Assembly: GCF_000292525.1 (NCBI RefSeq)
Contig: NZ_AEYF01000002.1
Location: 124,001-188,000 of the forward strand
DNA from: Rhizobium sp. CCGE 510
GTDB lineage: Bacteria > Pseudomonadota > Alphaproteobacteria > Rhizobiales > Rhizobiaceae
DNA: 64,000 bases
Reading direction: 5' to 3'
Made by a program: the position numbers and the translations under genes
Shown here: piece after piece, positions 36,585 to 37,361 of the stretch
How positions within the stretch are numbered: the first letter of the stretch is position 1
Layout of the letters: every line of letters begins with the position of its first letter
Notes under the pieces: generated by a model
Databases searched by the model: none
What the model was told of the DNA's origin: nothing
What the model saw: the letters and a program-made list of their open reading frames with translations, nothing else

Positions 36585-36600
36585 GGACAGCGCTCACCTA

Positions 36601-36620
36601 TAGTATAGGGGGGTATACTA
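36601..36620. promoter_or_regulatory. DmeR operator in dmeRF promoter
   Basis: TAGTATA-GGGGGG-TATACTA, perfect 7-bp inverted arms around a G6 tract, 17 bp upstream of the dmeR start. RcnR-type regulators recognise G/C tracts flanked by such arms (family knowledge). Confidence 0.85.
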
Positions 36621-36680
36621 TCAACGGCGCCGGCCAATATCAAGGCTGATGGGCTGTTTCAGCGTCCGGCTCTGACGCCA

Positions 36681-36709
36681 TTGACAAACGCCGCGTTTCC
36701 GACGATTGA
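36681..36709 (+). promoter_or_regulatory. Candidate sigma-70 type promoter for the leader/GNAT transcript
   Basis: TTGACA at 36681-36686 is a perfect -35 match; 17 bp later GATTGA (36704-36709) is a weak -10. The leader-peptide ATG at 36716 would then be at or very near the transcript start, which would require a leaderless or very short 5' end; a slightly different promoter is possible. Confidence 0.35.
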
Positions 36710-36715
36710 TGCCCC

Positions 36716-36766
36716 ATGATCAAGAACGCGCACCAGAGCCGCTCGTATTTTTGGCTGTACCTGTAA
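36716..36766 (+). CDS. Attenuator leader peptide rich in aromatic codons
   Basis: A 16-codon open frame, MIKNAHQSRSYFWLYL, ending in TAA at 36764-36766. It holds TAT-TTT-TGG-CTG-TAC in a row (Tyr, Phe, Trp, Leu, Tyr), the kind of sensor run seen in pheA, pheST and trp leaders. Segment 1 of the attenuator (36738-36744) lies just before this run, so a ribosome stalled on the Tyr/Phe/Trp codons would cover segment 1. I infer control by charged aromatic tRNAs. No obvious Shine-Dalgarno is present (CGATTGATGCCCC), which is a weakness. Confidence 0.7.
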   Translation: MIKNAHQSRSYFWLYL

Positions 36767-36842
36767 AGGGCGGCCGGACAAGATCATATTGTCAACAAGC
36801 CGCCGTCAGGCGGCTTTGTTGTATCGGCAGCGTCCTGACGGC
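36738..36842 (+). promoter_or_regulatory. Ribosome-mediated transcription attenuator upstream of GNAT gene
   Basis: Four segments can form mutually exclusive structures. Protector: 36738-36744 GCCGCTC pairs with 36768-36774 GGGCGGC (one G-U). Antiterminator: 36769-36774 GGCGGC pairs with 36799-36804 GCCGCC, and a nested GACAA/TTGTC hairpin (36777-36781, 36789-36793) closes the gap between them. Terminator: 36797-36804 AAGCCGCC pairs with 36809-36816 GGCGGCTT, loop GTCA, then TTTGTTGT. A further alternative, 36802-36810 GCCGTCAGG with 36834-36842 CCTGACGGC (9 bp), would also break the terminator. Read directly from sequence; no folding energies computed. Confidence 0.75.
36797..36822 (+). terminator. 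Intrinsic terminator of the attenuator
   Basis: 8-bp stem AAGCCGCC / GGCGGCTT with tetraloop GTCA, followed by TTGTTGT. With one bulge, the stem can extend outward by CAAC/GTTG pairs. It lies 45 bp upstream of the acetyltransferase start codon, so it would stop transcription before the gene. Confidence 0.75.
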
Positions 36843-36866
36843 AGACTATCAAAGGACGCGAAGACC

Positions 36867-37361
36867 ATGACCGAAATCGAAGACAGTGAAATTTCATTGA
36901 TGCGCCCATCGGTGGCGACGATCCGCGCCGCCAAGCCGCGCGACCTGCCCGAACTCAACGCGATGATCGCGCTGCTTGCCGCCCATCACGGCGATGCGGC
37001 GGGAACGACGCCGGAGCAGCTGGAGCGCGACCTGTTCGGCCCACTGCCGTGGATCACGGCGCTGGTTGCCGAAACCGACGAAGGGCTGATCGGCTACGCC
37101 ATTCTGGTGCCGCTCTACAGGGCACAAGAGGGAAAGCGCGGCATGGACCTGCACCATCTCTTCGTGCGCGACGGCCATCGCGGTCATGGCACCGGCCAGT
37201 TGCTCGTCGACCGGGCGCGCGAGACCGCGCGCAATGCCGGCTGCGGCTACCTCTCCGTCAGCGCCGCGACCGGAAATGTGCTGGCGCACCGCTTCTACGA
37301 ACAGATGGATTTCACCCCGCGGCCGGTGACCGGCATGCGCTATATGCAGTCGATCGCTTGA
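36867..37361 (+). CDS. GNAT family N-acetyltransferase under an aromatic-codon attenuator
   Basis: 164 residues from the ATG at 36867 with AAGGAC upstream; the frame continues upstream through the terminator but that part is leader. Core: IRAAKPRDLPELNAMIALLAAHHGD (alpha1), LVAETDEGLIGYAILVPLY (beta2-3), LHHLFVRDGHRGHGTGQLLVDRA (acetyl-CoA loop R/HGxGxG/L) and AATGNVLAHRFYEQMDFTPR (C-terminal). Family substrates range from polyamines to amino acids. The leader with Tyr/Phe/Trp codons suggests a substrate or product linked to aromatic amino acids (inference). Confidence 0.88.
   Translation: MTEIEDSEISLMRPSVATIRAAKPRDLPELNAMIALLAAHHGDAAGTTPEQLERDLFGPLPWITALVAETDEGLIGYAILVPLYRAQEGKRGMDLHHLFVRDGHRGHGTGQLLVDRARETARNAGCGYLSVSAATGNVLAHRFYEQMDFTPRPVTGMRYMQSIA

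Follow-up and report, generated by a model that had tools for sequence, protein, structure and literature searches.

In attenuators of the type found at trp, pheA and pheST in Escherichia coli, a short leader open reading frame with cognate codons is accompanied by competing 1:2, 2:3 and 3:4 stems and by a terminator that is positioned before the structural gene. The target of an attenuator usually serves the supply or use of the amino acid that is sensed, although this relationship is not strictly defining. Among rhizobia, the tryptophan attenuator before trpE of Sinorhizobium meliloti is described as producing a short RNA, rnTrpL, from a leaderless leader frame (PMC10117765; PMC7298713), and the start of this transcript with the AUG of trpL makes it a known leaderless attenuator of the group (PMC10117765). 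The 64,000-nucleotide stretch of Rhizobium sp. CCGE 510 DNA analyzed here (the window) contains an element of comparable design, with an RNA that is predicted from the sequence, upstream of a different gene, which encodes a 164 aa GNAT acetyltransferase with an SSAT/thialysine-acetyltransferase-like fold (36867..37361, + strand). The element differs from the trp, pheA and pheST attenuators by combining three aromatic amino acids in one sensor, by being probably leaderless, by having a GNAT gene as target and by a further predicted pairing, which joins the terminator loop to a segment able to hide the Shine-Dalgarno sequence. The element is very probably a leader-peptide transcription attenuator that would turn on the GNAT gene when charged Tyr-, Phe- or Trp-tRNA is short, a level of confidence that applies to the attenuator and its aromatic signal, the substrate of the enzyme being a separate matter.

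The leader open reading frame, MIKNAHQSRSYFWLYL, comprises 16 codons (36716-36763, + strand) followed by a stop codon at 36764-36766; it was read directly in the sequence and is conserved by relatives. Its putative sensor is formed by the codons TAT TTT TGG for Tyr11-Phe12-Trp13 (36746-36754). On its own the codon run TAYTTYTGG is commonplace, with 99 occurrences across the window's own genome, and a short frame with a cluster of Tyr, Phe and Trp codons was present in all 65 GNAT elements that were scored. Direct reading placed a -35 element, TTGACA, at 36681..36686 on the + strand, and a weak -10-like sequence, GATTGA, at 36704-36709 would position +1 at about the leader ATG. The TTGAC motif is located 34-39 nt upstream of the leader ATG in 65/65 GNAT elements, 63 of them with a distance of 34-36 nt. 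In view of this constant spacing transcription should start at the leader ATG, the weakness of the -10 match notwithstanding, and the leader RNA probably is leaderless with its start at or adjoining the ATG. The suggestion in the preliminary description that the leader is nearly leaderless is strengthened correspondingly.

Downstream elements on the + strand follow the classical order. Segment 1 (GGCUGUACCU, 36753..36762) extends from the end of the Trp codon to Leu16, within the Trp-Leu-Tyr-Leu codons, and has as its partner segment 2 (AGGGCGGCC, 36767..36775) which lies immediately 3′ of the stop codon. Within segment 2, GGCGGC (36769-36774) is the antiterminator half that matches segment 3 (GCCGCC, 36799..36804), a sequence common to the antiterminator and the terminator. 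A small hairpin formed by GACAA (36777-36781) and TTGTC (36789-36793) is nested in the antiterminator (36777..36793), and all three of its modelled pairs exhibited two-sided changes among relatives. The intrinsic terminator, AAGCCGCC-GTCA-GGCGGCTT with the T-rich tail TGTTGTAT (36797..36824), has a stem at 36797-36816 that is extendable to 36793-36821; the stem ends 50 nt before the GNAT ATG at 36867. The folding energy of the stretch 36793-36825 was -19.6 kcal/mol, whereas 200 shuffles gave -6.06 kcal/mol (sd 2.17), a difference equal to z -6.2. An interruption of the T-tract (TTTGTTGTAT) counts against the attenuator reading. The 16-codon frame, the antiterminator with its nested hairpin and the terminator with its GTCA loop all were found at the positions given in the preliminary description. 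Neither the window nor seven related loci yielded an Rfam match above the gathering score, and the element does not belong to the T-box or another described Rfam family by this measure.

The association of the element with the GNAT gene was assessed at increasing phylogenetic distances. The GNAT protein was detected in all 37 genus genomes searched, including the window's own genome, with 79-100% identity; the strongest match in 24 genomes from the order's other families had an E value of 2.9e-13, which at most denotes a distant relative. Thirty of the 37 genus loci were read, and in each the leader ends with SYFWLYL or TYFWLYL and is followed by a near-identical terminator. A first covariance model produced 72 matches in 68 of 297 family genomes, spanning 24 of 109 genera with the doubtful match G094 counted. 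Seventy of the 72 matches were retrieved first and G111 later; G074 was known by its coordinates only. A GNAT orthologue starts 136-235 nt downstream of the element start in 65 of the 70 retrieved matches, and the others comprise four Tyr-Tyr versions considered below (L072, L073, L078, and L091) and G094, which is not credible. The latter, the candidate for an element lacking a GNAT gene, scored an E value of 4e-4 with the first model and revealed no element by eye; the refined model did not report it either, in an output that does not name every genome searched.

Conversely, a protein search (E ≤ 1e-30) identified the GNAT gene in 68/297 family genomes from 23 genera, and the element was located upstream in 68/68. 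The first model recovered 67 of these, with G111 also verified by reading and G074 by coordinates only, and in G128 the leader MTEMANHTVRYFTLFR and a terminator were found by reading and also by the refined model. This refined model, which was built from 69 elements, reported 31 genomes among 151, all 31 of which are within the 68 GNAT genomes. Named loci were assembled from public genome records of 402 relatives, of which 80 were kept: 80/80 possess the element with a YFW or WYF leader, among them S. meliloti 4H41 (leader MIKNAPISSVYFWLFR), S. medicae, S. fredii, Ensifer adhaerens, and members of Agrobacterium, Neorhizobium, Pararhizobium, and Ciceribacter. Overall, the GNAT gene was never met without the element among the 68 GNAT genomes, a strict linkage between gene and element that goes beyond the preliminary description.

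The secondary structure is supported by covariation. RNAalifold applied to 30 genus sequences produced the 1:2 stem formed by GGCUGUACCU and AGGGCGGCC, with two-sided change in none of its pairs within the genus. Across a wider alignment of 69 sequences (65 distinct), 92.0% of cells were paired, a value to be read with the fact that the sequences were aligned to a covariance model fitted to the tested structure and so are biased towards it. In these 69 relatives the 1:2 helix displayed two-sided changes at seven of nine pairs with 87.8% of cells paired, and its covariation score of 0.255, against 0.04-0.07 for slid controls, was reached by 0/500 shuffles. The pairs between segments 3 and 4 were conserved in 65/65 distinct sequences, one with a G-U pair, and the columns of the 2:3 antiterminator were paired in 335/414 cells. 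The preliminary description had assigned the protector to 36738-36744 paired with 36768-36774: this stem can be formed by the window sequence, but its columns pair in just 266/483 cells of the 69 relatives, and it was rejected as the conserved 1:2 stem in favor of the helix 36753-36762/36767-36775. The comparison of regions upstream of orthologous genes, which had been put forward there as a check, otherwise bore out the assignment of a ribosome-mediated attenuator of the trp/phe type with a Tyr-Phe-Trp sensor before the GNAT gene, as the leader codons are conserved and compensatory changes occur in the covarying stem.

Switching was examined in a model of the nascent RNA that was folded up to segment 3, the edge of the ribosome being assumed to lie 15 nt from the first base of the P site. 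When the ribosome occupied any one of the first three positions in the aromatic run, the probability of the antiterminator exceeded 0.5 in 69/69 elements, compared to 0/69 with the ribosome at the stop codon and 29/69 without a ribosome. In this model with its 15-nt edge, the stall and stop positions select between mutually exclusive antiterminator and terminator structures. Equilibrium folding with segment 4 included was performed on 59 elements, the four Tyr-Tyr copies and six elements with a long or uncertain spacer being left out. No switch was seen among these 59 as the terminator was dominant in most of them in every state; with a stalled ribosome the antiterminator won in 2-4/59 nascent and 12-13/59 full-length folds. 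As the terminator dominates the equilibrium, the decision must be kinetic. In the mechanism that is proposed, the RNA would begin at or beside the leader ATG. When aromatic amino acids are ample, a ribosome at the stop codon would cover segment 2, the 3:4 terminator would form and the RNA would end. A stall at Tyr11-Phe12-Trp13 would instead cover segment 1, permitting the 2:3 pairing and entry of the polymerase into the GNAT gene.

A second covarying pairing, additional to the stems in the preliminary description, is predicted between X (GCCGTCAGG, 36802..36810), which consists of the end of segment 3, the terminator loop and the start of segment 4, and segment 5 (GCGTCCTGACGGC, 36830..36842). 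The part of segment 5 that is complementary to X is CCTGACGGC (36834-36842), and GCGTCCT (36830-36836) is the putative partner of segment 6 (AGGACGC, 36853..36859), the Shine-Dalgarno region of the GNAT gene, which could be closed by seven pairs predicted in the genus. The X:5 pairing hence would reach a segment able to hide the ribosome-binding site. Gapless full pairing of X and segment 5 was observed in 51/69 elements and at most one mismatch in 63/69. Seven of 14 distinct X sequences had a perfectly matching partner, with loops that include GTCA, ATCA, GTCG, ACCG, GCAA, and TTCG. The partner of X in the same element outperformed the mean of the partners from other species in 67/69 cases, and z values relative to mononucleotide shuffles were below -1.5 in 69/69. 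The pairing of segment 5 with the Shine-Dalgarno region was tested on 63 elements, after six whose spacer is long or uncertain had been set aside; the native combination exceeded cross-species pairing in 52/63, with z below -1.5 in just 37/63. In 16 related elements, X:5 was clear (z ≤ -2) in nine, eight of which precede tyrS, was weak in L106, L109, L111, and L120, and was absent from the three tested elements that precede DAHP synthase genes. In the window the X:5 conformation was calculated at -33.3 kcal/mol compared to -35.3 kcal/mol with the Shine-Dalgarno sequence closed, coaxial stacking excluded, and as it is 2 kcal/mol worse the translational layer is advanced as a proposal. Formation of the terminator would leave segment 5 to shut the ribosome-binding site of leaked RNA, whereas formation of the antiterminator would free X to capture segment 5 and open the GNAT Shine-Dalgarno sequence, such that translation would follow the same decision as transcription.

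Sister elements precede genes of aromatic metabolism. The Tyr-Tyr version noted above occurs in Sinorhizobium/Ensifer-like genomes: an entire tyrS gene lies behind L072 and L073, a tyrS frame is represented behind L091 by its first 90 residues, and no tyrS was evident within 3.1 kb downstream of L078. The TTGAC motif is missing at the usual promoter position in these four copies. A search of 397 genomes of the order yielded 22 further matches outside the family, all of which were read. Ten precede tyrS and have Tyr-rich leaders, some with one Phe (L102-L104, L107-L109, L112, L115, L116, and L120); three precede a prephenate-dehydrogenase-like gene and have Tyr-Tyr leaders (L105, L106, and L111); and three precede a type I DAHP synthase gene and have leaders like MITVATSYFWYFSYDS (L117, L119, and L125). 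Six others (L110, L118, L121, L122, L123, and L124) had no convincing combination of leader and gene and were discarded. Family models confirmed TyrRS at L073, L102, and L107 and DAHP synthase at L119 and at L207, and the prephenate dehydrogenases at L105 and L111 scored above the cut-off of Pfam PDH_N and below that of NCBIfam; the remaining targets were named by likeness. Most of the sister elements were found with models built from GNAT elements.

The locus L207 is in the window's own genome, where a type I DAHP synthase gene is preceded by an F-Y-W-Y leader, MSTTSIYASRFYWYRCSQRTRVHA, and a terminator. Type I DAHP synthase (E ≤ 1e-80) was detected in 5/111 family genomes and an aromatic leader is present in 5/5. 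The type I DAHP synthase group of sister elements includes L207 and L209-L212. The tyrS gene of the window's genome (L206) has no such leader element upstream. The type II DAHP synthase gene of this genome (L208) has an aromatic-rich frame, MEWWVFTTYM..., ~199-107 nt upstream and behind a TTGACA sequence; the frame possibly is another leader, and no terminator was recognised after it. The sister elements share a similar start, terminator and stem plan with the GNAT element, and X:5 in most of the tyrS cases tested, but differ in that those of tyrS and prephenate dehydrogenase use mostly Tyr codons and those of DAHP synthase have longer leaders. The sensor matches the target: the Tyr genes read Tyr and the enzyme at the entry to the pathway, DAHP synthase, reads all three aromatic amino acids. 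The composition of the GNAT leader resembles that of the entry-enzyme leaders. In light of these sister elements, which go beyond the preliminary description, the GNAT gene most likely has been co-opted into the response to aromatic starvation beside DAHP synthase.

The composition of the GNAT leaders is more durable than their order. The order is YFW in 55/65 and WYF in 10/65, and the YFW leaders possess a further Tyr or Phe two residues on; order and flanking residues vary across genera (SYFWLYL, TYFWAYR, VYFWLFR, RWYFTLLP, WYFTLHS, RYFWSFL, and CWFYYANLP), the last of these and RYFTLFR, which is without Trp, being outliers. This pattern fits a leader in which tRNA charging is read and not a fixed arrest peptide, in which the critical residues are constant in identity, order and distance from the stall site. 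ErmCL and TnaC are examples of ligand-dependent stalling by the peptide's own sequence, and SYFWLYL might likewise stall the ribosome in the exit tunnel together with a drug or metabolite which the GNAT then inactivates. Antibiotics often are inactivated by GNATs, and the codons for the C-terminal YFWLYL are invariant, synonymous sites included, in 30/30 genus loci. The synonymous invariance of these last six codons exceeds what the peptide alone explains and is accounted for by the covarying 1:2 stem; in conjunction with the variation in aromatic order (YFW, WYF or WFYY) and neighboring residues across genera, and with the change of codons according to target gene in the sister elements, this makes an arrest peptide very unlikely. 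Separately, Phe is encoded by TTT in 66 of 100 Phe codons in the 65 GNAT leaders compared to 9/54 in four window genes, which means either that the wobble-read codon is preferred or that the RNA requires it.

The chance is similarly slight that the terminated RNA, the leader peptide, or both act elsewhere and that control of the GNAT gene is secondary. S. meliloti provides a precedent in rnTrpL and peTrpL (PMC7298713), nucleotide conservation within the genus is very high, and L078, a Tyr-Tyr copy, is not followed by tyrS, but the constant company of element and gene in 68/68 genomes, as well as structures and predicted Shine-Dalgarno pairings that suit a switch in cis, weigh against this role as the principal one; it could coexist with control in cis. 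That a plain, unrelated stem-loop terminator is preceded by a chance frame and followed by a constitutive gene is scarcely credible. The evidence is sequence-based, and the dominance of the terminator at equilibrium in most elements and every state would be expected from such an arrangement, but the conserved leader, the promoter spacing, the covariation and the switching of 69/69 elements in the nascent-RNA model all oppose it. A tRNA-charging attenuator acting in cis accordingly is the preferred reading.

The GNAT product matches PF00583, with no NCBIfam model at cut-off. A homologue search returned 328 proteins at E ≤ 1e-10, and the names among the 120 matches listed were no more telling than "acetyltransferase". 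The closest folds identified with Foldseek were SSAT2/thialysine N-acetyltransferase and SSAT1 (PDB 2bei and 2b3v), which assigns the protein to the SSAT group by fold; these nearest solved structures act on polyamines and thialysine, whereas the GNAT is bacterial and of low identity to them. The preliminary description had put forward an aromatic amino acid or a derived compound as a candidate substrate. The gene is flanked by genes for a divergent DmeF-type exporter and a metal-sensitive repressor and by a cytochrome c gene on the other strand, an orientation from which it looks to be the sole gene of its transcription unit in the window. The unit may differ elsewhere, as another same-strand frame is closely downstream of the GNAT gene at two of seven named loci examined (L187 and L191). 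A near-palindrome around GGGGGG (TATAGTATAGGGGGGTATACTAT, window 36599-36621) precedes the metal-sensitive repressor and DmeF genes and perhaps is the operator of the repressor.

To our knowledge, no GNAT has been assigned a pathway role in aromatic supply. Perhaps the enzyme N-acetylates and thereby disarms the agent behind the shortage, either an aromatic antimetabolite or an inhibitor of the pathway. In its most elaborate form this idea describes a damage-sensing defence, in which the target would be an aromatic antimetabolite or an inhibitor of an aminoacyl-tRNA synthetase or the shikimate pathway from soil or root exudate, the switch would detect uncharged Tyr, Phe or Trp tRNA and not the compound, and the six-segment relay would set both transcription and the opening of the Shine-Dalgarno sequence. 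We offer this scheme tentatively and, taken as a whole, consider it rather unlikely.

Attenuation by leader peptides was known already; the composite sensor for three aromatic amino acids, the GNAT target and the possible translational relay are new. No published description of the GNAT element was found among titles and the beginnings of abstracts, in a collection with most subscription journals outside its coverage. A term search of the main texts of PMC2965389, PMC4833913, PMC1273637, PMC4117421, and PMC10117765 did not find the element, and the main text of the last, a Ribo-seq study of S. meliloti, contains neither "YFW" nor "acetyltransferase" as a term. An anonymous acetyltransferase of Rhizobium, Sinorhizobium/Ensifer, Agrobacterium, Neorhizobium and relatives thus gains a testable physiological cue and is set beside the DAHP synthase, prephenate dehydrogenase and TyrRS genes that are under sister switches. 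The findings suggest that rhizobia and their relatives respond to a shortage of aromatic amino acids in a way that has escaped notice. The textbook scheme would be extended by a leaderless attenuator that senses Tyr, Phe and Trp together and maybe also gates translation, and what the GNAT acetylates during aromatic shortage is a question that can be addressed directly in a model symbiont.
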